DNA from: an uncultured Bacilli bacterium
GTDB lineage: Bacteria; Bacillota_I; Bacilli_A; RF39; UBA660
Reading direction: 5' to 3'
DNA length: 41,855 nucleotides
NCBI GenBank assembly: GCA_944363735.1
Contig: CALVVB010000005.1
Coordinates: 1 to 41,855 of the forward strand
The position numbers and the translations under genes are program-made. A model generated the notes under the pieces. That model was given only the letters and a program-made list of their open reading frames with translations. It did not search any database and was not told where the DNA came from. Shown piece after piece: positions 2,911 through 26,404 of the stretch. Position 1 is the stretch's first letter; the number at the start of each line of letters is the position of its first letter.

Positions 2911-2941
2911 AATATCACCTCAAAACAATTAAAATTTTAAC

Positions 2942-2980
2942 AGAAAAAGAAAGAAAAAGAAAGTTATTTTAAAACTTTCT
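2942..2980 (-). terminator. Probable weak terminator overlapping the 3' end of the 2964-3620 gene
   Basis: An 8-bp stem (AGAAAGTT / AACTTTCT, 2958-2980) spans the stop codon and is followed on the minus strand by a pyrimidine-rich tract interrupted by C. It is a weaker version of an intrinsic terminator. Confidence 0.4.
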
Positions 2981-3620
2981 TATAACTTATTGATGCTTCA
3001 ATAGGATAATGGGTACTAATTTGCATAATATCGACAAGACCAATTTGTTTTTTTACATCAGTTGCTTCTAAATTTTGAGAAATCAACATATGGTGTATTG
3101 GCTTTTTCTTCCCATAATAACTGGAAGCGATAGATGAAGAAATATCTACTAAATTATAATCAGCACAAAATTTTTCTATATCTACATCGTGAAAAGTACC
3201 TGATACTATACATGATTTAACATATTCATTACTATCAGTATTATTATAAAGTCTGTATAGTTCTTTGAACTCTTCTAGGCTTTCTTTTTTACTTTTCTTG
3301 ACATTAAATAAGGCAATAGGATCTCTTTCCAGTTGAGAAACAAATACACTACATGTTTTACCATCATGACACCCTAAATATGGAACCTTTGATCTTAATA
3401 AAACCATAGACTGTTTCATATGATTAAATATTCTATATTGACCAAGATTATCTTGCATTTTTAGATTATAAAGTAACTTCTTATTCCCTTGTAACAAAGT
3501 AATATCAAAATTTTCTTTTTTAATAAAATCAACAACTGCTTCTGTAATTTTAGTTTTACCTTTAAGTAAAGCGAAAGCATTTTTGTCTAAATCAAGGCTA
3601 AATATTCTTAAATTTTTCAT
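2964..3620 (-). CDS. Degenerate endonuclease/exonuclease/phosphatase-fold protein
   Basis: The 218-aa protein starts at an ATG with GGAGGGG upstream. The order of segments resembles the endonuclease-exonuclease-phosphatase (EEP) superfamily: an N-terminal strand (LRIFSLDLD), DITLLQ at 39-44, VSGTFHD at 139-145, PIHHMLIS at 174-181, and STHYPIEASI at 202-211. In active members these correspond to N, LQE, GDFN, IDxI and SDHxP. Here the catalytic Glu is Gly45, GDFN reads GTFH, the IDxI Asp is His, and SDH is STH; only the last His remains. If the fold call is right, metal-dependent hydrolysis is unlikely and a binding role is more plausible. No signal peptide. It sits between the ABC-F and Ca2+-ATPase genes with no obvious functional link. 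The fold assignment is from motif order only. Confidence 0.6.
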   Translation of the reverse strand: MKNLRIFSLDLDKNAFALLKGKTKITEAVVDFIKKENFDITLLQGNKKLLYNLKMQDNLGQYRIFNHMKQSMVLLRSKVPYLGCHDGKTCSVFVSQLERDPIALFNVKKSKKESLEEFKELYRLYNNTDSNEYVKSCIVSGTFHDVDIEKFCADYNLVDISSSIASSYYGKKKPIHHMLISQNLEATDVKKQIGLVDIMQISTHYPIEASISYKKVLK

Positions 3621-3662
3621 AATACCCCTCCGAATGTGCCATTATTATAGCATATAACTTTA

Positions 3663-6275
3663 TTAAACGCAACCTAAATTTCCTTTACTTTTAAGATATA
3701 GCTTTCTAATAAATTCTACTGGTATAACAGAAAAAGCACAGATTAGCATTATTTCTATTTCTTTTAAGCTAAGAGATGTTGTTCTAAATAAATCACCTCC
3801 ATAATAAATTAGAAGAACTTGAACTGCTACTATGAAAAGAATTATTCCTAAAAACACTTTATTAGAAAGAAGGTTAGCAAAGATATTTAAACGAGAAGTT
3901 CTAGCATTAAAACTATTAAATATCATCATAAATATGAAAAGGCCAAAGAAAGCACTCATAAAATAAATATCGTTTTTACCACTTCTAAAGAATGAATGAA
4001 TTAGAGGACTTTTTAAAAAGAATATGCAAAGTAAAAAGGAATAAATACTAGTAAAGACTATCTCATGTATCATATAACTATTAAGAATTTTCTCATCACG
4101 TTTTTTAGGAGGCTCATCCATATATTCTAAAAGAGGAGCTTCATAAGAAAAAGCAATACCTGCAAGAGTATCCATAACCATATTAACCCAAAGCATTTGA
4201 ATAACAGTTACAGGATTAGCAACTCCGATAAAAGGTCCTACTATTGATAAGAAAACAGCGCAGAAATTAACAGTTAATTGAAAAATAATGAATTTACGAA
4301 TACTTTTAAATATTGTTCTACCATAAAGTATTGCTTTAACAATGGAATTGAAGTTGTTGTCAAGTAGAATAATATCACTAGCTTCTTTAGCAACTTCTGT
4401 CCCACTTCCCATAGCAAAACCAACATCTGCCTTTTTTAAAGCAGGAGCATCATTAACACCATCACCAGTCATACCGACAACTAAACCTAACTCTTGACTT
4501 AGTCTAACTAATCTACTCTTATCAGTAGGTAAAGCTCTTGAAACAACAGAAAGTCTAGGAATAATCTTTTTAACATCAACATCACTCATATTATTAAGTT
4601 CACTACTTGTAAGAATAATATCTTTATCATCAAAAATAATTCCTGCATCTTTTGCAATAGACATCGCTGTCTTCTTATTATCCCCAGTAATCATAACAGT
4701 CCTAATACCAGCTTTTCTAACAAGCTCTATTCCATCTTTAACCTCTTCTCTTAACTCATCTTTAATAAATAATAAAGATATAAAAGATAAACCACTACCA
4801 TCATCCATAGCAAGTATTAAGACTCTAATACCAAAAGAGGTATATTCATCTATTACATCTATAATTCTATTTTTATTAACAAAAGGAATCTTTTTTCCAC
4901 TAGAAGAAATATAATACTTACATTTATCAAGTAATACTTCAGGAGCACCTTTATAATAAGTTATCTCTTTACTTCCATCTAATACTTTAGTATAGGAATA
5001 TTTATTCTTACTATCAAAAGGGACTTCCTTTATCTTTTTAACAGAATAATTACTTTCATCTAAATAATTAACAATTGCCTTATCAGTAGCATTCCCTCCT
5101 ATCCAAATATTTTTTTTCTCATCATATACACAATTAGTATTAGATAAAATTGCATTTTTCAAGATATTATAATAAGAAATACTATTCTTAAGTCTATCTT
5201 TTTCTTTATAATAATCAAAATTACCAAACATAACTCCTACTACTTCAAGTTCTCCTTTAGTAAGAGTACCAGTTTTATCTGTAAATAAAATATTTAAACT
5301 CCCAGCAGTCTCTATTCCCATAAGTTTTCTAACTAAAACATTATCTTTTAACATTCTTTTCATATTACTAGAAAGTACCAAAGTAATCATCATAGGTAAC
5401 CCTTCAGGGACAGATACTACTATTATTGTAACAGCAAGTGTTAAAGCTTGAAGAAAATAAGCAACTAGTAAGGATGTATCAGAAAGAGTAAAAAGTATTC
5501 TATTTATATCAAAGTTATTATTTATAATAAGAACAGAAAACAAATATGAAAAAGCAACAAGAAAAGCACCAATATAGCCTATTCTACTAATTACTTTAGC
5601 AAGATCTCTTAACCTTAATTTTAAAGGGCTTTCAGGCTGTTTTTCTTGTAACTCTAAAGATATCTTACCATAAAAAGTATTAATTCCTACTTTAGTAACA
5701 ATCATCTCTCCTACTCCATGATATATAACACTACCTCTTAATAGTTCATTATTATTATTTGGATTAAGTCCACTAATAAAGGGTTTTTTATATACTTCTT
5801 TGCTTTCTCCTGTAATAGAAGATTCATCTACACTAACTTCTCCTTTAATTAGTACACCATCTGCAACTATTCTATCTCCACTTTCAAGTATGATAATATC
5901 TTCTACTACTACATCATTTATATCTATGAGTAATATTTTTCCATCACGTCTGACTTTTACTTTAATAGATTCTGCTTCACTTTGTAGTTTTAAAAAAGCT
6001 TTCTCACTTCCATACTCTGATATTGTTGAAATAAATGATGCTAGAAATATTGCAATTACAATACCAACAGTTTCATACCAATCAAAATCTTGAATTAAAA
6101 ATACTGTTTTAATACCAAGGGCAATTAAAAGTATTTTAATAATTGGATCTCCTAAACTTCTAATTAATTGTCTAAAAAAACTATCTTTTTTTACTGCTAC
6201 TAAAGAATTCTTACCATATTTATCTCGTGACTTAATAACTTCATCATTACTTAAACCATTGCTATTTACTTTCAT
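3663..6275 (-). CDS. Calcium-transporting P-type ATPase (P2 type)
   Basis: The 870-aa integral membrane pump moves cations across the cell membrane using ATP. It has the P2 layout: N-terminal cation ATPase domain, actuator loop with TGES (155-158), PEGLP in M4 (290-294), the phosphorylated Asp333 in DKTGTLTKG, a TGDGVNDAP hinge, and a C-terminal membrane block. M6 contains MLWVNMVMDTLAG, whose Asn and Asp together with the PEGLP Glu form the Ca2+ site II pattern of SERCA/PMCA-like enzymes. The length is typical for bacterial Ca2+-ATPases such as LMCA1. The start has a strong AGGAGG 8 bases upstream. Ca2+ (or Mn2+) export is the likely role; the exact ion is inferred from these residues. Confidence 0.95.
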   Translation of the reverse strand: MKVNSNGLSNDEVIKSRDKYGKNSLVAVKKDSFFRQLIRSLGDPIIKILLIALGIKTVFLIQDFDWYETVGIVIAIFLASFISTISEYGSEKAFLKLQSEAESIKVKVRRDGKILLIDINDVVVEDIIILESGDRIVADGVLIKGEVSVDESSITGESKEVYKKPFISGLNPNNNNELLRGSVIYHGVGEMIVTKVGINTFYGKISLELQEKQPESPLKLRLRDLAKVISRIGYIGAFLVAFSYLFSVLIINNNFDINRILFTLSDTSLLVAYFLQALTLAVTIIVVSVPEGLPMMITLVLSSNMKRMLKDNVLVRKLMGIETAGSLNILFTDKTGTLTKGELEVVGVMFGNFDYYKEKDRLKNSISYYNILKNAILSNTNCVYDEKKNIWIGGNATDKAIVNYLDESNYSVKKIKEVPFDSKNKYSYTKVLDGSKEITYYKGAPEVLLDKCKYYISSSGKKIPFVNKNRIIDVIDEYTSFGIRVLILAMDDGSGLSFISLLFIKDELREEVKDGIELVRKAGIRTVMITGDNKKTAMSIAKDAGIIFDDKDIILTSSELNNMSDVDVKKIIPRLSVVSRALPTDKSRLVRLSQELGLVVGMTGDGVNDAPALKKADVGFAMGSGTEVAKEASDIILLDNNFNSIVKAILYGRTIFKSIRKFIIFQLTVNFCAVFLSIVGPFIGVANPVTVIQMLWVNMVMDTLAGIAFSYEAPLLEYMDEPPKKRDEKILNSYMIHEIVFTSIYSFLLCIFFLKSPLIHSFFRSGKNDIYFMSAFFGLFIFMMIFNSFNARTSRLNIFANLLSNKVFLGIILFIVAVQVLLIYYGGDLFRTTSLSLKEIEIMLICAFSVIPVEFIRKLYLKSKGNLGCV

Positions 6276-6377
6276 AAGTTACCTCCTAAAAAATAATATG
6301 AAAGTAAGTAATTAATTAAGATAATTATAACAAGACAAAAAAATACATATAACTTAATATATGTATTAATTATATAA

Positions 6378-6404
6378 TAAAAAGAAAAAGAGCCTAGGCT
6401 CTTT
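6378..6404 (-). terminator. Intrinsic terminator of the glucosaminidase gene
   Basis: The perfect palindrome AAAGAGCCTAGGCTCTTT (6387-6404) forms a GC-centred hairpin overlapping the stop codon at 6403-6405. On the minus strand it is followed by TTTTCTTTTTATT. Confidence 0.85.
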
Positions 6405-7134
6405 ATCTACTTCTAATTAATGCAATGTAATTATTTACTTTACTAGTCCAAGTAGTACTTGCTGCATATTTTGGACCAATTGTCTCAACAGTAGTTAAAC
6501 CAACAGCATAATAATTACGATATAAGTTATCTAAATAACCCATAATACCTTCATCAAGTGTAGGATATGCTTTATAAGATCCTCCGCCACAACTAGGTCC
6601 ACCTTTTTGACCACCAACATTATTACACTCACGAACTAAACTACTACAAGTACCATTACATCCAGTCTCATGAAGAATAATAGCAGTTGCCATATAAGGA
6701 TCGATTCCCAGTTGTAGTGAATAACTAGCAATTAGATATCCTTTTCCTGAAATATTAGACTTTAAAGATCTATTTAACTTATCAGCTAACTCTTCCATTG
6801 TTAATCCATCGTAAACTATAGGATCAACCGGGATAGTACTAACATCTTCATAAGTTTTAACATCCTCAAGTTCTTCTTCAATAACTACTTTTTCTGTTTT
6901 TATATTAGTAGATTCATTTTCTATTTCAGTATTATCAGATTCTAAATCAGAACTATTTTCATTATTTTCTACTTCTTTAATTTTTCCTGAATAAGAATCG
7001 TTCATTGTCACAGTTTCATAAGCTACAGTATTATCTTCTATTTCAAAAGCTTTATACTGTAATACTCCGGCTAAACCTATCATAAAAACACCAATTGATG
7101 CTAAAGTAAGGCTCAGCTTACTAACTTTTTTCAT
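6403..7134 (-). CDS. Membrane-anchored lysozyme-like glucosaminidase
   Basis: The start at 7134 (MKKVSK) is set by GGAGG 5 bases upstream; the frame continues to 7158 without a site. The 243-aa product has a signal anchor (about 9-26), a long acidic Glu/Asn/Ser linker (about 31-105), and a C-terminal lysozyme-like domain with LHETGCNG carrying the presumed catalytic Glu156, followed by NNVGG, YPTLDEGI and YAASTTW, as in endo-beta-N-acetylglucosaminidase (GH73-like) domains. It should cut peptidoglycan glycan strands outside the cell. Four cysteines lie close together in the catalytic domain (159, 163, 170, 182) and could form disulfides. The gene has its own promoter, a palindromic operator candidate and a terminator, so it is a single transcription unit. 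Confidence 0.85.
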   Translation of the reverse strand: MKKVSKLSLTLASIGVFMIGLAGVLQYKAFEIEDNTVAYETVTMNDSYSGKIKEVENNENSSDLESDNTEIENESTNIKTEKVVIEEELEDVKTYEDVSTIPVDPIVYDGLTMEELADKLNRSLKSNISGKGYLIASYSLQLGIDPYMATAIILHETGCNGTCSSLVRECNNVGGQKGGPSCGGGSYKAYPTLDEGIMGYLDNLYRNYYAVGLTTVETIGPKYAASTTWTSKVNNYIALIRSR

Positions 7135-7162
7135 AGTTCCTCCTTCAAATAAGAACAATAAA

Positions 7163-7199
7163 ATTATAGCAAATTATTATTTTTTTGTCAAATTTGACA
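7163..7199 (-). promoter_or_regulatory. Sigma-A promoter with a palindromic operator candidate over the -35 box
   Basis: On the minus strand TTGACA (7191-7186), a 17-bp spacer and TATAAT (7168-7163) form a consensus promoter 29 bases before the glucosaminidase start. The -35 box is half of a perfect 14-bp palindrome, TGTCAAATTTGACA (7186-7199), which could be a repressor site. The promoter is clear; the operator role is inference. Confidence 0.75.
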
Positions 7200-7247
7200 C
7201 CTGAACCTATTATATTATATGCATTTTTTATATTTTTTACTTGACTT

Positions 7248-9401
7248 TTATCCTATTTCATTTATCAATGATAAATTAACTTTTTTCTTATTTAAATCAA
7301 TACTTTCTACATAACAATCAACTATATCTCCAACACTAAATAAATCACTAGGATTCTTAATATACTCATGAGTTAGTTTAGAAATATGAGCAAGGCCATC
7401 ATTTTTTAATCCTATATCAATAAATAGACCAAAATCGACCACATTACGTACAGTTCCTTGTAATTTATCACCAATCTTTAAATCTTCTATATGTAAGATA
7501 TCGTTTCTTAAAATTGGTTGTGGGTATGAATCACGTAAATCTCGCATTGGTTTTTCTAAAGACTCTATAATATCATCTAAAGTATAGTTATCAATATTTA
7601 TCTCTTTACTAATCTTTTCTCTATTTAAATTATTCAATTTATCAATTAGTTCTTTACTACCCAAATCATTTTCCTTATATCCTAAATAATTTAAAAGTTC
7701 TCTAGTTTTATTATAACTTTCAGGGTGAATTGAGGTTTTATCTAAAGGATTATCTCCATCTAATATTCTTAAAAATCCCACTGCTTGTTCATAAATTTTA
7801 TCACTCATTCCTTTAATAGAAAGTAATTCATTTCTATTTTTAAATTTACCATAACTTTCTCTAAAGGAAATGATATTATCTATTACTTTTTTATTTAATC
7901 CTGATACATATTTTAACAATGAAGGACTTGCTGTATTAATATTAACACCAACTCCGTTAACAGCTTTACTAACAACAAAGTTTAAAGATTCATCTAATTT
8001 TTTTACTGGTACATCATGTTGATAAAGACCAACTCCAATACTTTTTGGATCTATTTTAACAAGCTCTGATAAGGCATCTTGAACTCTTCTTCCAATACTA
8101 ACAGCACTTCTTTTTTCGACAGTTAATAATGGAAACTCTTCTATTGCAAGTTTACTAGCAGAATAAACAGATGCCCCTGCTTCACTTACTATTATATAAG
8201 ATACATCTTTTTTACAAGATTTAATTGTATCTGCCACAAAAGCTTCACTTTCACGAGATGCAGTACCATTTCCAATAGCGATTACATCAATATTGTATTT
8301 ATCTATTAGTTCAAGTAGTGTCTTTTTAGAGCCTTCTATATCATTATGAGGTTCTGTTGGATAGATAACAGCGATTTCTAATACTTTACCAGTTTTATCT
8401 AGTACAGCAAGTTTACAACCGGTTCTAAAAGCAGGGTCAAAACCTAAAACAGTTTTGTCTTTTAAAGGTGGTGTCAATAAAAGTTTTTCTACATTAATAG
8501 AAAAATTATCAATCGCTCGTACTTCTCCTTTTTCTTTTAATTCACTTCTAACTTCTCTATCAACACTAGGTAATATTAGTCTTTTAAGACTATCATTGAT
8601 AGAATCACTTATTATATCATAGCAAAAAGATTCTTTATTCTTAATTACTTTAGTTTTTAAATAATTAATAATTTTTTCAGTGTCATAATCCAGTTTAACA
8701 GAAAGTACACCTTCTTTTTCTCCTCTATTTATCGCTAAAATTCGATGTGGTTTAATATATTTTATTGTTTCTGTAAAGTCATAATAGTTACTATAAGTCT
8801 TATCTTCATCATTAGCACTTTTCTTTAATTTACTAACAATAACTCCTTCTTTAAAGATATAATTTCTAATCCATTTACGATAATATGCATTATCACTAAT
8901 CCATTCAGCAATTATATACTTTGCTCCCATAATAGCATCTTCAACAGTCTTAACCTTATCATTAAGATATTTTGATGCAATAGTATTTATATCTCCTTTA
9001 GTAGGACAAGACATAATAATCTTTGATAGAGGTTCTAATCCATTATTAATAGCATCTGTAGCTTTTGTCTTTTTCTTCTCTTTATAAGGACGATATAAAT
9101 CATCTACTTCTACTAACTTACTACATTTCATAATAGATGTTTTTAATTCATCAGTAAGAAGTCCCTTCTCATCAATTAATCTAATAACATCTTCTTTACG
9201 TTTTAAAAGATTAACTTGATATTGATAAACATCATCTATAGATTTTATAATTTCTTCATTTAAAGCCCCTGTCACTTCTTTACGATATCTTGCAATAAAA
9301 GGGATAGTATTCCCCTCTTCTAACAAATTTAGTACAGTTATAACCTGTTTCTTACTGATATCTAAATCTTTGCTAATCTCTTCAATAATTACTTCATTCA
9401 T
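7248..9401 (-). CDS. tex: Tex family RNA-binding transcription accessory protein
   Basis: The start used is the ATG at 9401 (MNEVI), which has AGAGGA at a good distance; the frame extends to 9422. The 717-aa length matches Tex. The domain order is standard: an N-terminal helical region with PFIARYRKEVTGAL, a YqgF/RNase H-like domain with VLGFDPAFRTGCKLAV (about residue 320), helix-hairpin-helix repeats (VNINTASPSLLKYVSG and GMSDKIYEQAV), and a C-terminal S1 domain (VRNVVDFGLFIDIG, then HISKL). Tex-type proteins bind nucleic acid and associate with transcription and ribosomes in the cytoplasm. The intergenic region to 7134 carries the promoter of the next gene, so it is probably transcribed separately. 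Confidence 0.96.
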   Translation of the reverse strand: MNEVIIEEISKDLDISKKQVITVLNLLEEGNTIPFIARYRKEVTGALNEEIIKSIDDVYQYQVNLLKRKEDVIRLIDEKGLLTDELKTSIMKCSKLVEVDDLYRPYKEKKKTKATDAINNGLEPLSKIIMSCPTKGDINTIASKYLNDKVKTVEDAIMGAKYIIAEWISDNAYYRKWIRNYIFKEGVIVSKLKKSANDEDKTYSNYYDFTETIKYIKPHRILAINRGEKEGVLSVKLDYDTEKIINYLKTKVIKNKESFCYDIISDSINDSLKRLILPSVDREVRSELKEKGEVRAIDNFSINVEKLLLTPPLKDKTVLGFDPAFRTGCKLAVLDKTGKVLEIAVIYPTEPHNDIEGSKKTLLELIDKYNIDVIAIGNGTASRESEAFVADTIKSCKKDVSYIIVSEAGASVYSASKLAIEEFPLLTVEKRSAVSIGRRVQDALSELVKIDPKSIGVGLYQHDVPVKKLDESLNFVVSKAVNGVGVNINTASPSLLKYVSGLNKKVIDNIISFRESYGKFKNRNELLSIKGMSDKIYEQAVGFLRILDGDNPLDKTSIHPESYNKTRELLNYLGYKENDLGSKELIDKLNNLNREKISKEINIDNYTLDDIIESLEKPMRDLRDSYPQPILRNDILHIEDLKIGDKLQGTVRNVVDFGLFIDIGLKNDGLAHISKLTHEYIKNPSDLFSVGDIVDCYVESIDLNKKKVNLSLINEIG

Positions 9402-17343: not shown

Positions 17344-17802
17344 CTATTTATCAGTAGAACCAAAGCCACCGTTTCTAATGCCAGAAGCATTATCATTATC
17401 AACTATTAAATATTTTTGAAATATTGCTTGTCCTACCGCTTCACCTTTTTTTATAGTAACATCTTCATCTTTTAAATTAATACATTGTATAAAGATATGG
17501 CCTTCATTATCACTGTTATTATAATAATCAGAATCTATTACTCCTACATTATGAGGAAAGCTAATACCTTGTTTTTTAGGAGAAGAGCTTCTTGGTACTA
17601 TAAGTAATACTTCATCACTTTGCATATAAGCTTTAAGTCCTGTTGGAATTAATGTTGGTTTCATTCCTTTCTTAAAACTAGGTAAAACAATCTCTTCTGC
17701 TGCTTCTATATCATAAGCGGCAGAGTTTTTTGTCTTTCTAACAGGTAAATTAATTCCTTTATCAATATATTCTTTAACTATTTCAAAACCTCTTGTTTTC
17801 AT
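17344..17802 (-). CDS. dut: dUTP diphosphatase (trimeric dUTPase)
   Basis: The 152-aa enzyme hydrolyses dUTP to dUMP and diphosphate, keeping uracil out of DNA and supplying dUMP for thymidylate synthesis. All five trimeric dUTPase motifs are visible in order: AAYDIEAA (about 28-35), PRSSSPKK (70-77), NVGVIDSDYYNN (85-96), GEAVGQAIF (120-128) and the C-terminal RNGGFGST (142-149). The length is normal. It lies 3 bases after an unknown gene that overlaps nrdG, so dNTP synthesis and cleaning are co-transcribed. No signal peptide. Confidence 0.95.
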   Translation of the reverse strand: MKTRGFEIVKEYIDKGINLPVRKTKNSAAYDIEAAEEIVLPSFKKGMKPTLIPTGLKAYMQSDEVLLIVPRSSSPKKQGISFPHNVGVIDSDYYNNSDNEGHIFIQCINLKDEDVTIKKGEAVGQAIFQKYLIVDNDNASGIRNGGFGSTDK

Positions 17803-17805
17803 TAT

Positions 17806-18237
17806 TTAATTCTCCTCTAATTTATATTTGTCACTTCCATATAGCTTATAAGCTTTTCTTGTTCTTTTAAAAGTTTTTTGTTCTTCTTTTTCTTCATGAT
17901 TAGATAACTCTAAATTTAACTTTTCCAAGACACAAAGAACACTATCTTCCCTAGCTTGAGCCTCAATATCTAAATATTCTTTCTCAGCATATGGAGCCTC
18001 ATATTGTCTAGTTCCAATACAAGCAACTACATCGTCATCTATTGAATATAATTGCAATATTTTTTCGTTATTTAAAGTTTCTAACACTGAAGGAAAAGAC
18101 TCTAAAGTTTCTACCTCACTTCCTATAAATGCAGCAGGTACCATTCCTTTATCACCCTTTTTCAAGTATCCTCCTGATATCCTGCCATATTCACCACTCA
18201 TAATTAAGGTAAAACCTTCTTTTAATCTTTCTTCCAT
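17806..18237 (-). CDS. Unknown protein within the nrdG-dut operon
   Basis: I do not recognise this 143-aa protein. Its ATG overlaps the nrdG stop codon by one base (TAATG), a sign of translational coupling, and its own stop is 3 bases before dut, so it is firmly part of this operon. It is soluble, with no signal peptide. The N-terminal half (about 1-65) has short strands with GRISGGYLKKG and MVPAAFIGSEVETLE; the C-terminal half is helical and charged, ending in a Lys/Arg/Tyr-rich tail. There are two cysteines near the middle (68 and 97 by rough count). Its position suggests a link to dNTP supply, but no known nucleotide motif is visible. Confidence 0.75.
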   Translation of the reverse strand: MEERLKEGFTLIMSGEYGRISGGYLKKGDKGMVPAAFIGSEVETLESFPSVLETLNNEKILQLYSIDDDVVACIGTRQYEAPYAEKEYLDIEAQAREDSVLCVLEKLNLELSNHEEKEEQKTFKRTRKAYKLYGSDKYKLEEN

Positions 18238-18779
18238 TATTTTGCTCCTTCTAATATTTTACTATTATCAATATAAAGGACAATCTCTTTACTGTCAAGA
18301 GACTTAGGAACATCGATAATTCTTTGGTTAGCACTTCCTATATAATGAAGTTTTTCTTCCTTTTGTGATAAAATGAATTTTCCATCTAAAAGTACATCTA
18401 TATTATTAAGAATATCTTCTAAATAAGTATCAACCTCTCTTTGAGCCATTAACTCTTCCCAAGTATACCCTGTATAACACCAAATATTTTTATTTGGATA
18501 TAATTCTCTTATATTAGTAACTAAATCTCTAATCATCTTTCTATTACCAAGAAATAGAGGATCTCCCCCTGATAAAGTAATACCATTACACCAATCTTGA
18601 TCAAGTTCACGATAAATTTCTTCTATTGCTTTATCATCGAATTCTACTCCATCATTAGGATCCCAAGTAAGAGCATTTTGACAACCTGGGCATTTATGAG
18701 AGCATCCACTAACCCATAAAACTACTCTTAAACCTTCTCCATTTAACATATCCGCTTTTGTTATATTATGATATTTCAT
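18237..18779 (-). CDS. nrdG: Anaerobic ribonucleotide reductase activase
   Basis: The 180-aa radical SAM enzyme makes the glycyl radical on NrdD. The cluster motif CSHKCPGC (Cys26, 30, 33) is the CX3CX2C form, followed by the SAM-contacting SGGDPLF segment (about 94-100). NrdG proteins are usually 150-200 aa with no extra domains, as here. The start at 18779 has GAGGGAAC upstream. It lies 141 bases downstream of nrdD on the same strand; no terminator is obvious between them, so they may be co-transcribed with the downstream unknown gene and dut. Confidence 0.96.
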   Translation of the reverse strand: MKYHNITKADMLNGEGLRVVLWVSGCSHKCPGCQNALTWDPNDGVEFDDKAIEEIYRELDQDWCNGITLSGGDPLFLGNRKMIRDLVTNIRELYPNKNIWCYTGYTWEELMAQREVDTYLEDILNNIDVLLDGKFILSQKEEKLHYIGSANQRIIDVPKSLDSKEIVLYIDNSKILEGAK

Positions 18780-18920: not shown

Positions 18921-21191
18921 TTACATAGACTTTCTTTCAGCAATCTCTGCCATTTTAGCTTTATTAAGTCTTGTATCACCATGGACTCTTGAATATGATA
19001 AATATCCATTCATTCTATCTATTTTAGTTAAATCACTACTACCACACTTTGGACAAACATCCATGTCTAACTCTTGATGTCCACAGTTATTACAATATGA
19101 TAATGCTAAATTAACCCCTTCATAGAAACCTTTATCCATCGCTCTTTCTACATAAGTTCTCATCGCTTTATCATTGTAGTTTAGATTATATCTAACATAC
19201 TGAATTCTTCCACCTCTAAATAAATCCCAGAATCTACCTTCTAAATCTTGTTTTTGAATACCACTAATATCTTCCCAAACAGCACAATGGAAACTATTAG
19301 AAACATATTCTCTATCAGAAACCCCTTTAACTATACCATATTTCTTTCTAAATTGTTCTACTTGTGTACCACATAAAGATTCTGCTGGTGTTCCATATAT
19401 TGCATAAAGAACGTTATCTTCTTTTTTAAATTTCTGAATTTTTTCATTAATATACTTCATAACCTCTAAAGCGAAAGATCCATCTTCAACTAAACTTTTA
19501 CCATTATATAATTCTTGTAATTCATTTAAAGCTGTAATTCCAAAAGATACGGTTGATGATTTTAATATTGGTTCTATTGGTTCATTAGGTTTTAAATTGC
19601 CTCCATAAAAGCCTCCTTCACAGTAAGCAAGTGGATTAGTAGAAGCTTTCTTTTTCGCAAGATAATCTCTTGTCCTAATATGAACTTTTCTAATCATTTC
19701 AAGATAATAATCTAAAACTTCGTAAAAATCTTTTTGTTCTTCTCTTGCTTTAGCAAGTATCATTGGTAAATTCAAAGATATCGCTCCAATATTAAATCTA
19801 CCAATAAACACAGGTTTGTCGTCATCATCTGCTGGTTCCATTCCTCCACGTTCATACCAAGGAGATAGAAAAGCACGACATCCCATTGGACTTACAATAC
19901 GACCATATTTCTTATACATCTCTGGAACATATCCTTCTCCTGTCAATGATAAATAATCAGGATACATTGTTTTACTACTACATTCTAGTGCTGTGTCAAA
20001 TAAATGTGCCATTTTCTTTCCTTCACCATGTAAGTTCTTATCATATAAAAATACTAGTTTAGGAAATAAAGTTGGTTTTCTAAATCCAGGTTTACCTTGA
20101 CCTTTCATATGTGTTTTCAAGATTATTTCTGATACCATTTGCCCATAAGGGTCTTGTTCTACTCCAAAAGTAAATGTAACAAATGGATAGTCTCCACGAG
20201 AAGAACCTACACTATTAAGTTTATATTCAATACCTTGATATCCTTGTTCACATTCACGTCTTGTTTTCTTCCAAGCATATTCTTCAGCTTTTGCAGGATC
20301 AACTCCACCAGTAATTTCCATATATTCATCATAAAATTTATTATAACTCTTCTTTGCATAAGGAGTAAGTATTGTATCTACTTCAGGAACTGTAAAACCA
20401 CCATATTGCATTGCTGCTGTATTAATGATAACATCTCCCATAACATCAAAAGCTGTGTCTAATGTTTTTGGTTCATTATACCAAAGATTGCCCATTTCAA
20501 AACCATCTTTCATAACAGTACCAACATCGCATAAACAACAGTTCATGGTATCACGTCTTGCACTCATATCATGAATATATATATATCCATCTTCACAAGC
20601 CTCGATCTCTGCTTTAGTTAAGAAGAATTTTTTATAAAGCTCTTTATTAAGATTTCCATATACTAAACTTCTTTGTGTAGATACTAAGGCACTATCAGTA
20701 TTAGAATTTTCTTTATCTCCAATATAGTTAATTGCTTGAGCTTTCTTATATACTTTATCTAAAATATGTACAAAATCATTCTTATAGTTACGATACTCTC
20801 TATAACTTTTTGCAACTAAAGGATTAACTTGTTCAAGCGCTGCTTCTACACAGTTATGAATTTGATTAACTTCGGCATCACTTGTTTGATTTTTTAACAT
20901 ATCAATTACAAGGTTAACTACTTCGTCTTTCGCTTCTTCAGTAAGATCAACCATAACTCTTTCTGCACTTTTTTCAATCGCACTTCTTATTTTATTGCCA
21001 TCAAAAGCCTGTCTTGTACCATTCTTTTTAATGATATTAATATGTGGATTATCAAACTTATGCTCCTTATTTTTATTTTCAACCTTCTTAGTAAGAGTTT
21101 TATTTCTTCTATTGCCCCCATTGTTGCCATTATCTTCGTTAATAGCATTAACATTATTTTTTTTCGCATTTACCGCTTTCGCTTTTGTCAT
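18921..21191 (-). CDS. nrdD: Anaerobic (class III) ribonucleoside-triphosphate reductase
   Basis: The 756-aa enzyme reduces ribonucleoside triphosphates to deoxy forms under anaerobic conditions. The parts are a basic, Asn-rich N-terminal extension (1-50) not typical of the family; an ATP-cone allosteric domain (about 51-137); the catalytic barrel with MNCC (216-219) and finger-loop MGCRAF (436-441) holding the expected active-site cysteines; a C-terminal zinc site (Cys700, 703, 713, 716); and the glycyl radical site at Gly729 in RMNGYLS. All needed residues are present. It works with NrdG next door. The start has AAGAAGG and AAGG upstream. The divergent neighbour at 21490 is a related protein without the radical domain. 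Confidence 0.97.
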   Translation of the reverse strand: MTKAKAVNAKKNNVNAINEDNGNNGGNRRNKTLTKKVENKNKEHKFDNPHINIIKKNGTRQAFDGNKIRSAIEKSAERVMVDLTEEAKDEVVNLVIDMLKNQTSDAEVNQIHNCVEAALEQVNPLVAKSYREYRNYKNDFVHILDKVYKKAQAINYIGDKENSNTDSALVSTQRSLVYGNLNKELYKKFFLTKAEIEACEDGYIYIHDMSARRDTMNCCLCDVGTVMKDGFEMGNLWYNEPKTLDTAFDVMGDVIINTAAMQYGGFTVPEVDTILTPYAKKSYNKFYDEYMEITGGVDPAKAEEYAWKKTRRECEQGYQGIEYKLNSVGSSRGDYPFVTFTFGVEQDPYGQMVSEIILKTHMKGQGKPGFRKPTLFPKLVFLYDKNLHGEGKKMAHLFDTALECSSKTMYPDYLSLTGEGYVPEMYKKYGRIVSPMGCRAFLSPWYERGGMEPADDDDKPVFIGRFNIGAISLNLPMILAKAREEQKDFYEVLDYYLEMIRKVHIRTRDYLAKKKASTNPLAYCEGGFYGGNLKPNEPIEPILKSSTVSFGITALNELQELYNGKSLVEDGSFALEVMKYINEKIQKFKKEDNVLYAIYGTPAESLCGTQVEQFRKKYGIVKGVSDREYVSNSFHCAVWEDISGIQKQDLEGRFWDLFRGGRIQYVRYNLNYNDKAMRTYVERAMDKGFYEGVNLALSYCNNCGHQELDMDVCPKCGSSDLTKIDRMNGYLSYSRVHGDTRLNKAKMAEIAERKSM

Positions 21192-21489
21192 TACCTTATA
21201 CCTTCTTTCTTAGTTTTGATAATTTGATTATAAACACACTTTTAAAAAAAAGAAAGTTTTTTTTAAAAAAAAATATTAATTTTACACTAAAAAAAACATT
21301 TATAAAATTTGAATCGAACAGTTTGTGAAATCTATATTTTTTCCTTATAATACAAGTGTTTTGTGTTTTTTTATCACAAATAAATAGAAAATGTTTTTTT
21401 TGTTACTTTTTTCAGAAAATAAACGGAAACATTGATTTTATAAGGAATTAAAGGTATAATTAAAACAAAGAAGAAAAGAGGTAATTTTT
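21192..21489. promoter_or_regulatory. Divergent regulatory region between nrdD and the NrdD-like gene
   Basis: This 298-bp, extremely AT-rich spacer must hold both promoters. For the rightward gene, TTGATT (21432-21437), a 17-bp spacer and TATAAT (21455-21460) is a good sigma-A promoter. For nrdD a TATTAT box lies near 21347-21352 on the minus strand, without a convincing -35. Near 21352-21367 the sequence ACAAGTGTTTTGTGT is a partial dyad and could be an NrdR-type box, but it does not match the consensus well. Long A and T runs flank 21246-21300. Confidence 0.6.
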
Positions 21490-23451
21490 ATGACAAATAA
21501 AAATCTATTTGACACTTTAGTTGTCGTTAAAAGAAGTGGTCAAAGAACAAATTTTCAAGGAGAGAAAATTGCAATCGCTATTCAAAAAGCATTTAGTTCT
21601 ATAGATATTCCTTATAAAGATGAAGATGTTAATAAAGTATATTCTAAAGTTTTAAAGAAAATAGAAACAGAATATAAAGATAGAAAAACTATAAATATTG
21701 AAAATATTCAAGATATTATTGAATTAATGTTAAAAGAAGAAAAACTAATAGATGTTTATGATGCTTTTAAAAGTTATCGGGATAAGAGAAATGCTTCAAG
21801 AAAAACTTTTGTTATTAAGCAGCAGCATAAGTTTTTAAAAGCAATAGAGTTTTTAGGACTTGATAATTTGAGCAACGAGAAAGAACAACCAGAAATTACA
21901 TTAAAACGATTTGGAGATACTATCTCTACAGAATTTGCTAAAGCTTATCTTTTAGATAATAAAAGTTCTAGATGTCATGATAGTGGTCTAATATATATAG
22001 ATTCTCTTGAAACAATGCCTATGGGAGAAATAGACAGTTTAGAGATAAGTTTTACTGAATATATAGAATCTAATACTAACTTAAAAGAAAAGTTAGTAAA
22101 TGCAAATAGTATAGAAGAATATTTAAGCATTATAAAAATTACCCTTTTTAATTTAAAGAAAGAATTATATGGTTCTATTTGTCTATCGACTTTTGATAAA
22201 GATTTAGAAGAAATAACATTAAAAAGTTATAAAGACATTCTTTTAGAATATTTAAAAATATATCTAAAAACAAGTAATTTAGATGCACTTTTACCTATAG
22301 AAAAGATTAAAGAAGAGATTAATATAATAAAAGATATAGATGAAGATTGTTTTTATAACTATTATAAAGATTCTAGAAGTTTAGAAGATAATTTCAATAA
22401 TATAAGAAAAGATGCTAAAAGTAAATTAGAAAGTGATTTAATAAAACAACTAAATAATTTTTTTAAAGAGTTAGTATTTCTAAGTATAAGTATAAATTTT
22501 GGTACAAGTAAATCTAATTTAATAGTAGAAAGCATAATAAACTCCAGTATAGATTCTGATAATATAGAGTATTACTTTAAAGTAAAAAAGAATAATAAAG
22601 ATGGTTCTTTATTAGAAAAATATAAAGATAAGAGTTTGAAAAGAAACAATTTTAGTTTTATCTTTTTAGAAGGCTTTAATAATTTAAAAGACGAGGAAGT
22701 ATGTTACTTTAAAAATGGAGAAAGAGTTATTGAAGATAATACTACTTCTTTAAAAAAACTAACAACTGGTAAAGGAAACATTGCAAGTGTATCTATAAAT
22801 ATTGTTAGAATTGCTTTAAAGAATAGTTATTTATTAAATAAAGAATCTAATATAAGAGGATTTTATCAAGAGTTAGACAAACTAATTAATCTTGCTAAAG
22901 ATTCTTTACTTGAAAGATTTGAAATTGATTGTACAAGAAAAAGTACCAACTTTCCTTTTCTTTATGAAGAGGGATTATGGCATGATGGAGAAAAAGTTAA
23001 AGCGACTGATAGATTAAGAAAACTATTGAAGCATGGGACTTTAACAATATCATTTTGTGGTTTAAAGGAAGTGTTATATGCTCTTCAACAAGATGAAAGT
23101 AAACATATTGAGTTAGCAAGAGATATTATCCTTTATATGGCTAAAAAGATAGATAAAATAAGTGATGATAATAATTTGAATTTTACTTTATCTACAATCG
23201 TTTCTAATGATATTAAAACAGAATTTAAAAAACAAGATACAGCAATTTATGGTAAATTAAAAAATATAACTGATAAAAACAGTTATTGTAATGCAAATTA
23301 TTTTAGTAATGATTTAAAAGATATAAGTCACCTACAAAGAAAATGTAAGGGAGGATCTATTTATAAAATTAAAGTTAAAACAAAAAAAGAACTAGATAAT
23401 CTAATTCTTAACTCTTTAGATAATAACATTGGTGCTATTAAAATTATTTAA
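21490..23451 (+). CDS. NrdD-like protein with ATP cone but no zinc or glycyl radical domain
   Basis: The 653-aa protein follows the class III reductase plan but stops short. An ATP-cone is at about 9-104 (VKRSGQRTNFQGEKIAIAIQ). Then come SGLIYIDSL (165-173), aligned with DGYIYIHDM of NrdD; TTGKGNIASVSINIVRIAL (425-443), aligned with the conserved GRGNxxxxTINLPRIAL of other NrdDs; NFPFLYEEGLW (487-497); and LTISFCGLKEVLYAL (518-532). The MNCC cysteines are replaced by MPMG (176-179), and the finger-loop Cys appears to be Asn409 in FKNGERV, although Cys405 is close. The chain ends just after the KGGSIYKIKV equivalent of GGRIQYVRY, so the zinc site and Gly radical loop are missing. The stop is clean and the frame intact, so this is not a recent pseudogene. 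It resembles GRGN-type NrdDs more than its neighbour. A nucleotide-sensing or regulatory role is inferred. Confidence 0.8.
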   Translation: MTNKNLFDTLVVVKRSGQRTNFQGEKIAIAIQKAFSSIDIPYKDEDVNKVYSKVLKKIETEYKDRKTINIENIQDIIELMLKEEKLIDVYDAFKSYRDKRNASRKTFVIKQQHKFLKAIEFLGLDNLSNEKEQPEITLKRFGDTISTEFAKAYLLDNKSSRCHDSGLIYIDSLETMPMGEIDSLEISFTEYIESNTNLKEKLVNANSIEEYLSIIKITLFNLKKELYGSICLSTFDKDLEEITLKSYKDILLEYLKIYLKTSNLDALLPIEKIKEEINIIKDIDEDCFYNYYKDSRSLEDNFNNIRKDAKSKLESDLIKQLNNFFKELVFLSISINFGTSKSNLIVESIINSSIDSDNIEYYFKVKKNNKDGSLLEKYKDKSLKRNNFSFIFLEGFNNLKDEEVCYFKNGERVIEDNTTSLKKLTTGKGNIASVSINIVRIALKNSYLLNKESNIRGFYQELDKLINLAKDSLLERFEIDCTRKSTNFPFLYEEGLWHDGEKVKATDRLRKLLKHGTLTISFCGLKEVLYALQQDESKHIELARDIILYMAKKIDKISDDNNLNFTLSTIVSNDIKTEFKKQDTAIYGKLKNITDKNSYCNANYFSNDLKDISHLQRKCKGGSIYKIKVKTKKELDNLILNSLDNNIGAIKII

Positions 23452-23468: not shown

Positions 23469-24188
23469 TCATCTTACTTTGCCATGTAAATTGTTGATAT
23501 CTTCTAATTCGTTATGTAATTGTCTTACTACTATATAATTAATATTATCTTCACTTTCTAAATAATCAACATAAATATCACTATCTATATGATTTCCACT
23601 TTTATCAAAAGTTAAGGCATTTATTTGCAATTCTTTTTTATAAGGAGTAGTAAATCTAAATAAGTAAGGTTCTTCTTTATCTTTTAAAATATTATCTACA
23701 TTAAAATAATATTCTCCTATATGTACATTTTTATAATCATTATTATTATGAACTATATCATTACTATAGATGTTTTTACTGTTATAACCTATTAATAATT
23801 TCTTCATATTATCTTTACTAGGTAAAACTCCACAACTATCTTTACCACTTAAATATCTATCTGATAACTCTTGATTAGAAAAATTAGCACTGAATAAAGG
23901 TCCTATTTTTATTTTTCCTAAACCTATCTCTTTGATAGAGTTACCATAAAGATTAAAACTAATTTCTCCTATATTAAAAAGCAAATAATTCTTTAATAAA
24001 TTATAAATTCCTTCATTAATATTTTCTTTTCTTACACTACAGATATTACTAATAATATACTCTACTATTATATCTTTTTGAGATTCACTTAATTTATCTT
24101 TATTTTCACTAATATAATTACAGAAAAAGGACATAAAAGTCCTATTTTCTTTATCTAAAATAACCATATTAGGTAGTAATTTTGCCAT
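23469..24188 (-). CDS. Unknown protein downstream of the HtrA gene
   Basis: I do not recognise this 239-aa protein. It is soluble, without a signal peptide or membrane segment. The N-terminal part (1-75) is helical; the C-terminal part is rich in Asn, Asp and Tyr and looks like beta structure (IGEYYFNVDN, YLFRFTTPYKKELQINALTF). Three or four scattered cysteines form no motif. It starts 23 bases after the HtrA stop with AAGGAC upstream, so it is probably the last gene of the Abi_2-HtrA operon. It converges on the NrdD-like gene with only 17 bases between the stops and no clear terminator. Confidence 0.7.
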   Translation of the reverse strand: MAKLLPNMVILDKENRTFMSFFCNYISENKDKLSESQKDIIVEYIISNICSVRKENINEGIYNLLKNYLLFNIGEISFNLYGNSIKEIGLGKIKIGPLFSANFSNQELSDRYLSGKDSCGVLPSKDNMKKLLIGYNSKNIYSNDIVHNNNDYKNVHIGEYYFNVDNILKDKEEPYLFRFTTPYKKELQINALTFDKSGNHIDSDIYVDYLESEDNINYIVVRQLHNELEDINNLHGKVR

Positions 24189-24211: not shown

Positions 24212-25333
24212 TTAACTCTTACTACTACTCAATACAACTTTTGTTGCATATTCTTTACCGTTACGGATATAAGTTATCTCTATTGTATCACCTGCTGAAT
24301 ATTTGTAAAGTTCATATCTTAAATAAGCAGAATCTTGTACTTTTTCTCCATTGAGTTTGGTAATAATATCTCCTTCTTTAAGATCAGATGAAGCTGCTCC
24401 ACTTCCAGATTCAATTCCTGCAACTACAACACCATAATCTAAATCATTAGGAATATCAAAATTATATCTAAAACTATTTTTTGCATCATTTACATTAAGC
24501 ATAGAAACGCCAAGTAATGGCCATTCTATAGATTCTCCTTTTTCAAGAGTTTCTATTTTACTATTAATATATTCTATAGGAATAGCAAATCCCATACCTT
24601 CAACTTCTGTTTGAACAAGTTTCATAGAAATAACTCCAATAACTTCGCCATTAGTATTCATTAAAGGTCCACCACTGTTACCAGGATTAATTGCTGCATC
24701 AGTTTGTAATACTTTCATAACCCAATCACTACTATTAGTATTACCATCAGTACTGACACTAACTAATCTATCTTTACCTGCTAAATGGCCTGTAGAAACA
24801 CTACCTCTATATTCATATCCTAAAGGACTTCCAACTGTAAATACTAAATCACCAAGTTTAGCATTTTCACTATTACCAAGTTGTAGTGCTACTAATCCAT
24901 CAGTTTTTTTAATTTTAATTACAGCGATATCAACGTAAGAGTCTCCTCCTAATACTTCTCCTTCAATCTCTTCATCATTAGAAGTAATTAAAGTAATTTT
25001 ATTAGCACCTTCTACTACGTGTTGATTTGTCATGACATAAGCATAATCACCTTCAATTTTATAAACAAATCCTGTCCCTGTCGCTGCTACTTCATTATTT
25101 TGATAATTTCTGATCATCAAAACCCCATCATAAACTTTAGATACTGCCTCACTAATACCTGATTCATCAACGACTACTTTAGTACAGTTTGCCGAACTAC
25201 AAGTTAAACCACTACTTGTAGTAGCATTATTACTAATTAAGTCATCTCCCCCTATAACTACAAAGGTTAGCGCACCACCTATTACAAAAGATACAATTAT
25301 AAGTACAGCTTCTTTAATTCTTTCTGCTTTCAC
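24212..25333 (-). CDS. htrA: HtrA/DegP-like membrane-anchored serine protease
   Basis: The 373-aa protease handles misfolded or surface proteins outside the membrane. One N-terminal transmembrane anchor (about 9-28) is followed by a Ser/Thr/Cys-rich linker, a trypsin-like domain with catalytic His105 (TNQHVV), Asp135 (VDIAVI) and Ser220 (GNSGGP), and one PDZ domain (about 285-365; GVVVAGIESGSGA, LKEGDIITKLNG). This is the usual single-PDZ Gram-positive form. Translation starts at GTG (25333), inside the end of the Abi_2 gene and 20 bases before its stop, with GGAGAG upstream, so the two are coupled. The overlap with an Abi gene is unusual. Confidence 0.95.
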   Translation of the reverse strand: MKAERIKEAVLIIVSFVIGGALTFVVIGGDDLISNNATTSSGLTCSSANCTKVVVDESGISEAVSKVYDGVLMIRNYQNNEVAATGTGFVYKIEGDYAYVMTNQHVVEGANKITLITSNDEEIEGEVLGGDSYVDIAVIKIKKTDGLVALQLGNSENAKLGDLVFTVGSPLGYEYRGSVSTGHLAGKDRLVSVSTDGNTNSSDWVMKVLQTDAAINPGNSGGPLMNTNGEVIGVISMKLVQTEVEGMGFAIPIEYINSKIETLEKGESIEWPLLGVSMLNVNDAKNSFRYNFDIPNDLDYGVVVAGIESGSGAASSDLKEGDIITKLNGEKVQDSAYLRYELYKYSAGDTIEITYIRNGKEYATKVVLSSSKS

Positions 25334-26294
25334 TATTTAAATCTCTCCTTTCAATGCTTGTTTCAATATCTGCAAGTTCCATATAATTATTAGGAAATCC
25401 CATTCTATCTAATATTTTATCTATTTTAATACTATGCAGATTATAAGCAAGATTATCAATTCTATTTTTTAGTTCTAAACACATATCTTTAAATTCATCA
25501 TACGATAACATTCTCTTCATTATAATAAGTAAGGAAAACAAGTCATTAGTTCCTTTAGTATAATATCCATCTTCGTCTTTTTCTAATCCAAGCAATTCAT
25601 GGAATCTTGTACCTTTAATTTTTTTCTGTGTTCTATTTTCGTATAAAATATCTTCATGAGCACATAAATTACGGTAATTAGATAATATTGGTAAATAGTT
25701 TATAAATTCTTCTAATTGTATATTATAAATTTTACAAATATTAACTTGATCATCGTATTTCATTATTGAAAATAATTCTCCAACTATTCCAAAAGATAAA
25801 ACTTTAACTAAAATCCAAAGTGGTACATATCCATAATTAGACATATAATGAGCGGTCGCTGTATGTTGAGAACCATTAATTCTAATTTGTCTTTTCATCT
25901 TCTTAATTAAATCATTTACCTGTTTTTGTTTATTCTTATCATTTGTAAAGTTTTTAGCCCGTAAATAATATTTATCTTTATAGCCATATTTTTTTGATAA
26001 CTGATATGAAAATATAGATTTTAAGTTATTTTCAATAACAAGTAAATATTTAAAAAATACATTTCTAATCGCTCTATCAAAAAGAAATAAACTATACATC
26101 TCTTCAAAGGTAACACCATCTAAAAAATGTTTATCAATATTACTTTTCATAAAAGGGTATCTATAACCTGATAAAAAGAAATAATTTTCTCTTAATAATA
26201 TTTTTTTAGTATATCCTTCATCAGTAATAGTCATACCCTTATATTTAAGTATTTCTATTTGTTCTTCAAGATTCTTAAACTGCTTATCTATCAT
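25314..26294 (-). CDS. Abi_2 (AbiD/F-like) protein with a HEPN RNase motif
   Basis: The ATG at 26294 (MIDKQF) has GAGGA 6 bases upstream; the frame extends to a GTG at 26306. The 326-aa product has the Abi_2 pattern: LEEQIEILKYKGMTI (9-23), NYFFLSGYRYPF (37-48), GVTFEEMYSLFLFDRAIR (60-77), LLVIENNLKSIFSYQLS (84-100), and SNYRNLCAHEDILYENR (205-221). The last contains an Rx4H motif (Arg208, His213) as in HEPN ribonucleases. Abi_2 proteins were first known from lactococcal phage abortive infection and may cut RNA. The 3' end overlaps the HtrA start by 20 bases. A defence role is inferred from the family; the operon with a protease is not a known defence pairing to me. Confidence 0.88.
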   Translation of the reverse strand: MIDKQFKNLEEQIEILKYKGMTITDEGYTKKILLRENYFFLSGYRYPFMKSNIDKHFLDGVTFEEMYSLFLFDRAIRNVFFKYLLVIENNLKSIFSYQLSKKYGYKDKYYLRAKNFTNDKNKQKQVNDLIKKMKRQIRINGSQHTATAHYMSNYGYVPLWILVKVLSFGIVGELFSIMKYDDQVNICKIYNIQLEEFINYLPILSNYRNLCAHEDILYENRTQKKIKGTRFHELLGLEKDEDGYYTKGTNDLFSLLIIMKRMLSYDEFKDMCLELKNRIDNLAYNLHSIKIDKILDRMGFPNNYMELADIETSIERRDLNSESRKN

Positions 26295-26404
26295 CTTCTT
26301 CCTCACCTAGAATAAATTATATCATAAAAATTATGTAAAAAATATGAATTTTTTATGAAAAATTATGTTATACTTTTAAAAGTAGAAAGGATTGATTATA
26401 GATT

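Follow-up and report, generated by a model that had tools for sequence, protein, structure and literature searches.

The gene at 21490-23451 (+) of the window (the whole stretch of DNA that was analysed, 41,855 nucleotides) encodes a 653-aa relative of the class III ribonucleotide reductase NrdD that has the NrdD barrel and an ATP cone without the catalytic residues, as indicated by Pfam profiles (PF13597, ATP-cone), an AlphaFold2 model, fold matches and dN/dS values. This protein, referred to here as pseudo-NrdD, is non-catalytic and is retained by selection together with the active enzyme. Our preferred reading, to which we assign a probability of roughly 0.55, is that pseudo-NrdD serves NrdD as a regulatory subunit and reads ATP/dATP through its cone.

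The source genome is a 1.25-Mb MAG, 94 % complete, and a search of it returned two NrdD-like genes, namely that of pseudo-NrdD and a complete nrdD. The original prediction had described an intact 653-aa frame with an ATP cone and an NrdD-like core, and had proposed a search with the two corresponding profiles. The frame is indeed intact, and both profiles match: NRDD (PF13597) scores 142 bits over aa 128-631 (cut-off 26.2), and ATP-cone (PF03477) scores 51.5 bits over aa 11-101 (cut-off 25.8), i.e., positions 21520-21792 (+), where conserved columns and contact residues also identify the cone. Among NCBIfam models the top match is PRK07111 (NF005497), at 224 bits; this is below the equivalog cut-off of 764. 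HMM scores and the tree described below agree with the earlier view that pseudo-NrdD is nearer to the GRGN/TINLPR (PRK07111) type of NrdD than to its neighbour. The NrdR family TIGR00244 is absent from the Pfam and NCBIfam matches, which list no zinc ribbon, and no DNA-binding domain was found in the protein.

The catalytic parts are lost throughout the chain. In an alignment with related active NrdDs, the motif MGTTTC becomes MGEIDS in pseudo-NrdD, so that the active-site Cys of MGTTTC/MNCC is aligned with Ser183 (22036-22038, +). It had been claimed that MNCC is replaced by MPMG at residues 176-179; MPMG does occur there, but the Cys position itself lies slightly downstream, at Ser183. In the finger loop, YMGCRTR is changed to YFKNGER, and the Cys that carries the thiyl radical is aligned with Asn409 (22714-22716, +), the substitution that had been predicted. 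This Cys is missing from every RF39-type pseudo sequence shown in the alignment. The chain also stops short of the zinc site and the RITGY glycyl-radical domain, again as anticipated. Two losses extend the initial list: pseudo-NrdD has neither the NxN substrate flap (RENAN), which is deleted, nor the TPAE(S/G) motif, which is TPAEG in active relatives.

The predicted fold nevertheless remains that of a reductase. The AlphaFold2 model, computed from a 39-sequence alignment, has a pLDDT of 88.6 and a pTM of 0.87, and the top matches to it in Foldseek and VIA-align are the NrdDs of P. copri, S. thermophilus and T4. Superposition on 8p27_A with VIA gives Z 40.2 and an rmsd of 2.5 Å over 485 residues, so the expectation that the predicted structure would superpose on the NrdD barrel was correct. 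The aligned span runs from residue 132 to 653 of the model and from 120 to 674 of the experimental chain, so that the predicted ten-stranded barrel is complete and the radical domain alone is missing.

Orthologues of about 650 aa are present both within the genus and elsewhere in the family. A search of 197 relatives identified 25 genomes (in G098 the gene is divided between two contigs), and a scan of named genomes added 13 further contigs, giving 38 genomes that carry pseudo-NrdD. That the same truncated, Cys-less form is kept in all 38 is far beyond what chance would produce. Pairwise dN/dS ratios (Nei-Gojobori) are 0.07-0.24 within the genus, 0.11-0.16 in the group from other genera and 0.10-0.28 in other pseudo groups, and purifying selection acts outside the cone as well. 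The original prediction held that the pseudoenzyme is maintained and that a ratio well below 1 would reveal this; the ratios and the form conserved across genomes bear it out. Pseudo-NrdD does evolve faster than the NrdD of the same locus, as a decaying relic kept by chance would; given the low dN/dS, the intact frames of similar length in more than 10 genera and the conservation of both cone and promoter, we consider such a relic very improbable.

Conservation is distributed unevenly along the protein. When the alignment columns of 37 RF39-type pseudo sequences were compared with those of 46 active sequences, 143 columns that are invariant in the related active NrdDs were found to be lost. 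The pseudo group keeps 0/27 invariant columns in the middle region, 0/39 in the finger region and 0/20 in the C-terminal region, and in the RF39 branch the region of the specificity site has eroded. The cone is the best-kept region, with 15 of 17 invariant columns retained and a mean conservation of 0.68 vs 0.67 in the active group. The cone is therefore under the constraint seen in functional reductases, in contrast to the active site. In S. thermophilus NrdD (StNrdD) the nucleotide is contacted by Lys19, Arg20, Ile32 and Gln79 of the cone (PMC12662201), which align with K14, R15, I27 and Q74 of pseudo-NrdD. Among 59 pseudo-NrdDs from all groups, these residues are kept in 58, 59, 54 (Val in the others) and 59 sequences, respectively.

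The same comparison bears on whether the barrel has been repurposed to catalyze a different, non-radical reaction. A confidently predicted barrel and purifying selection beyond the cone would both be expected of a new enzyme. However, the 37 vs 46 comparison revealed no new conserved polar cluster, and A34 is the single position that is conserved in the pseudo group yet different from the active group; the residues of the pocket drift freely, as the finger columns show. We therefore regard a new catalytic function as quite unlikely.

Among the active PRK07111-type NrdDs of the family, 49 of 59 cores have no glycyl-radical motif in the chain. The motif is encoded instead by a separate ORF of 49-70 aa with its own start, located between nrdD and nrdG; that of locus L060, for example, is MDKEKKVKMVGEGVKFDRIRRITGYLVGTLDRFNNAKKAEVSDRVTHGTN. 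Split loci include L060-L064, L066, L073-L079, L081-L087 and others. A Cys pair (DCCGC, DCCN, QCGC and the like) ends 37 of the 49 split cores, e.g., that at 6094-8367 (-) of L060, and these ends recall the redox-active tails found in reductases of classes I and II. A separately encoded glycyl-radical domain of NrdD was not found in the open literature searched.

Splitting being the rule in these relatives, the pseudo-NrdD core might likewise be completed by a separate glycyl-radical peptide, and a radical domain encoded nearby had been named at the outset as an argument against a pseudoenzyme. No such peptide was detected in any of the nine pseudo-gene genomes searched, including G000, although it was recovered in 5/5 controls. 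As pseudo-NrdD also has neither active-site Cys nor the NxN flap, we consider a split reductase extremely improbable.

As had been noted, pseudo-NrdD is encoded head-to-head with a complete nrdD, at 18921-21191 (-). The product of this gene (TIGR02487, 568 bits) has its own ATP cone, TPAES, the zinc Cys and an RMNGY glycyl-radical motif; it is of the TIGR02487/PRK09263 type, and is the sole active NrdD found in the source genome. The same cluster includes the radical-SAM activase NrdG at 18237-18779 (-; PF13353/PF04055) and a dUTPase at 17344-17802 (-; PF00692, 63.5 bits). Besides the pseudo-gene, one active NrdD was found in each of 25 genomes searched, its gene being cut by contig ends in a few of them, and none of the 25 has an active NrdD of the PRK07111 type. 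The question of whether homologues also sit beside nrdD is answered by the 38 genomes, in 36 of which the pseudo-gene adjoins an active nrdD. In the first of the two exceptions, G018, the pseudo-gene occupies its usual locus but has no nrdD next to it, a D2 gene being present on another contig; in the second, G039, it lies at a contig end, and so adjacency cannot be judged.

Three arrangements are observed. In the first, that of the window, the pseudo-gene is head-to-head with an nrdD1-nrdG cluster; in the second it is head-to-head with nrdG2-nrdD2-trxB; and in the third all four genes form a single operon, pseudo-nrdG2-nrdD2-trxB, in which the stop of the pseudo-gene and the start of nrdG2 often overlap. 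NrdD2 is of the PRK08270 type and has a C-terminal glutaredoxin-like domain, so that the partners fall in two distant NrdD subclasses, D1 and D2; all active partners tested have an ATP cone of their own. In a single genus, a D1 partner at some loci is replaced by D2 at others, with the pseudo-gene and its htrA/p330 flank kept (L033 and L034 vs L036 and L037). From this exchange of partners beside a resident pseudo-gene, we conclude that the latter is not tied to one NrdD subclass.

The overlap with nrdG2 bears on a further alternative, in which pseudo-NrdD acts on NrdG or NrdD when the radical is installed, as a decoy, chaperone or quencher. The position of the pseudo-gene immediately before nrdG2 in the PSb operons would suit such a handling factor, but NrdG acts upon the C-terminal domain, which pseudo-NrdD lacks, and the best-kept region of the protein, the cone, would be needless for this role. 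This alternative is unlikely.

A regulatory subunit acting in trans is the simplest model for a protein that could pair with NrdD, through its cone or its core, but could not turn over; the original prediction had likewise suggested, as a possibility, a nucleotide-sensing partner, or a regulator, of NrdD. Class III cones bind two ATP or two dATP, and dATP pairs the cones and restrains the NxN flap (PMC12662201); alternatively, tetramers and disorder of the radical domain accompany dATP (PMC11226230). In P. copri NrdD, one protomer per dimer appears to be active at a time. For pseudo-NrdD, the binding of a nucleotide, an interaction with NrdD or NrdG and the sign of the effect are our inferences, as follows. 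Through its cone, pseudo-NrdD would bind ATP or dATP; with just one of these bound, it would associate with the active NrdD, adding in trans to the feedback control of NrdD or sharpening it. The contact would most likely be cone-to-cone, given that each partner has a cone and that the pairing of cones is known; the exchange of partners also points to contacts through something that both subclasses share, e.g., the cones. Otherwise, a mixed core dimer could form, but the eroded specificity-site region of the RF39 branch makes a canonical one uncertain. Three observations count against the regulatory model: each active partner could be regulated unaided through its own cone, G018 lacks the adjacent nrdD, and most clostridial pseudo-genes are not beside nrdD.

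These clostridial genes belong to a wider family. A sample of 195 genomes from a clostridial family yielded many more pseudo-NrdDs, of 690-740 aa, some of them less eroded. In a 97-sequence tree, made with a quick method and with some long branches, 51 pseudo-NrdDs form one clade (SH-aLRT 99) that spans gut Clostridia and Bacilli, is nested in the PRK07111-type clade and contains the family of the window. Group III (L135, L140, L143), group IV (L137, L139, L142) and L208 fall outside this clade. Group III is derived from the PRK07111 type and lies directly upstream of an active D1b nrdD and nrdG; group IV is derived from D1b and adjoins an active nrdD of the PRK07111 type. Each is thus paired with an active NrdD of a different subclass, and in each the cone persists but flap, finger Cys and radical domain are gone. 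Both groups are small, and some copies of group IV look damaged; those in G202 and G203 may be decaying. The separate positions in the tree (starred branches) imply at least three changes to the pseudo form, at least two further lineages being independent. We judge the odds to be about even that these proteins constitute a widespread and hitherto undescribed family of interchangeable, ATP/dATP-gated regulatory NrdD subunits that outlast the replacement of their partners, a design that would have arisen at least three times.

An NrdD of 785 aa at L227 (5333-7690, -) looks, from its sequence, like an early pseudoenzyme or intermediate: its radical motif is KITSYLVG, with Ser in place of Gly, the flap is altered, and the finger loop is YVGCGTRV.

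The region between the divergent genes of the window (21192-21489) contains two promoters and two operator-like half-sites. The -10 box of the nrdD promoter (TATAAT; 21227-21232, -) is identical in 11/11 divergent regions, and the pseudo-NrdD promoter, TTGATT-17-TATAAT (21432-21460, +), is conserved across them. One half-site, ATGTTTTTTTT on the reverse strand (AAAAAAAACAT on the forward strand), is upstream of nrdD at 21289-21299 (-), and the other, AATGTTTTTTTT, is upstream of the pseudo-NrdD promoter at 21390-21401 (+). Both keep their position in most of the 11 aligned divergent regions, whatever the type of partner. Where the genes form an operon, a pair AATGTTTTTTT-N~58-AAAAAAACATTGACA, overlapping the -35 box, lies upstream in 20 of 21 cases. 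Loci with paired half-sites upstream include L088, L094, L095 and others. Exact 9-mers occur upstream of 23/57 active PRK07111-type nrdD genes as well, compared with 0/87 and 2/87 of other upstream regions.

Whole-genome searches located the half-site pair at one place per genome in all nine genomes of the window's genus, the backwards control pattern also matching once per strand in G000. The pair is likewise at one place in seven of the eight operon-type genomes that matched; G093 has one extra site, and apart from this the pair sits at the promoter of the pseudo-gene. In one whole-genome search an exact match to the pair was absent from four of 12 genomes, one of them a pseudo-gene genome. 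No known RNA element at the locus exceeded the Rfam thresholds. NrdR (TIGR00244) was not found above the cut-off in any of the 197 relatives, nor in G000, and so another regulator presumably reads the half-site pair, which is a candidate operator for RNR regulation in this NrdR-less family. Pseudo-NrdD is an unlikely reader, because relatives without the pseudo-gene have the sequence too. Replacement of NrdR by pseudo-NrdD was also considered and rejected: in the family and in a sample of the class there is no correlation, NrdR being absent with or without the pseudo-gene.

The absence of NrdR is relevant to the main competing explanation, that pseudo-NrdD is an ATP/dATP sensor acting elsewhere, in salvage, replication or transcription, and partly filling the role of NrdR. 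In the clostridial branch the pseudo-gene is usually not beside nrdD, and at nine loci (L110, L117, L129, L200, L201, L202, L204, L205, L211) it directly follows a gene for pyrimidine-nucleoside phosphorylase, with no adjacent nrdD; in eight of the nine, rnhB (RNase HII) precedes the phosphorylase gene on the same strand. These loci, the missing NrdR and the pseudo-gene of G018, apart from nrdD, are all compatible with a sensor of this kind. Yet relatives that have no pseudo-gene are also NrdR-less and carry the operator-like sequence, and so pseudo-NrdD is not needed for that control; nor does it have a recognizable DNA-binding domain, and in the RF39 family its gene adjoins nrdD in nearly all genomes. 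We view a sensor acting elsewhere as possible but doubtful, and favor the regulatory subunit of NrdD.

Several known systems resemble pseudo-NrdD in part. The prozyme of trypanosomatids is an inactive AdoMetDC paralogue that controls the active one through a proven mixed dimer. Pseudoenzymes of this type, like pseudo-NrdD as proposed here, are inactive paralogues kept to control an active one; prozyme differs in that the enzyme is another, that for pseudo-NrdD a mixed dimer is conjectural, and that the partner of pseudo-NrdD comes from a different subclass and is not a sister copy. The inactive R1 homologues of betaherpesviruses are class I, viral, and used against host cell death. They too are RNR large chains kept after the loss of catalysis but, unlike pseudo-NrdD, they are not linked to an active reductase. 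NrdR is a small DNA-binding protein of about 150 aa, with a zinc ribbon and a cone. Pseudo-NrdD shares with it (PMC12051234) the lack of catalysis, the ATP cone and the connection to nrd control, but consists of a cone and a barrel without a DNA-binding domain.

Among the reductases, those of P. copri (PDB 8p23-8p39) and S. thermophilus (9d3x, 9dau, 9dca) have the same ten-stranded barrel, and their N-terminal ATP cone shares the Lys-Arg/Gln contact residues; unlike these, pseudo-NrdD has no radical Cys, NxN flap, TPAE motif or zinc/glycyl-radical domain, and is not an enzyme alone. The PRK07111-type NrdD (NF005497) is both the nearest profile and the evolutionary source of pseudo-NrdD, but all of its catalytic motifs have been lost, as the score of 224 bits against 764 reflects. 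The original prediction knew of no described family like this one, and we found no inactive, paralogous or accessory NrdD described in the open literature searched. Searches of RNRdb and of two large RNR family analyses for split, inactive or truncated forms turned up no such case.

Class III reductases are viewed as the products of one gene, served by an activase and controlled by a built-in cone (PMC11226230, PMC12662201). If the regulatory model is true, allosteric control can be moved to a separate subunit and shared between distant catalytic subunits. Because its cone is present and its flap and radical domain are absent, pseudo-NrdD is also a natural test object for whether cones act through the flap (PMC12662201) or through the order of the radical domain (PMC11226230), and it bears on the control of dNTP supply in NrdR-less gut bacteria.

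An anti-phage role was considered for pseudo-NrdD, but PADLOC returned nothing convincing. Viral contigs contained no close relative of it, only distant NrdDs of 25-35 % identity, and those inspected have ordinary catalytic motifs. We rejected a connection to the slot that follows the pseudo-gene at its 3' end (23469-24188 in the window), because the content of the slot changes between genomes: the cargo is an uncharacterised protein of 239 aa, a GmrSD-type nuclease or an ankyrin protein. Between L036 and L037, positions ~2400-7500 of the compared stretch form a diverged block of 78-89 % identity, with flanks mostly at 94-98 %. The block covers the variable slot together with the pseudo-gene, nrdG2 and the 5' part of nrdD2 (cone included), which suggests exchange as a unit. 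A 143-aa protein encoded between nrdG and dut (17806-18237, -) matches nothing in Pfam, NCBIfam or PADLOC and is conserved in part of the genus. An Abi_2 family protein (25314-26306, -; 142.6 bits), encoded beside an HtrA-like protease, is conserved next to the pseudo-gene throughout the genus.
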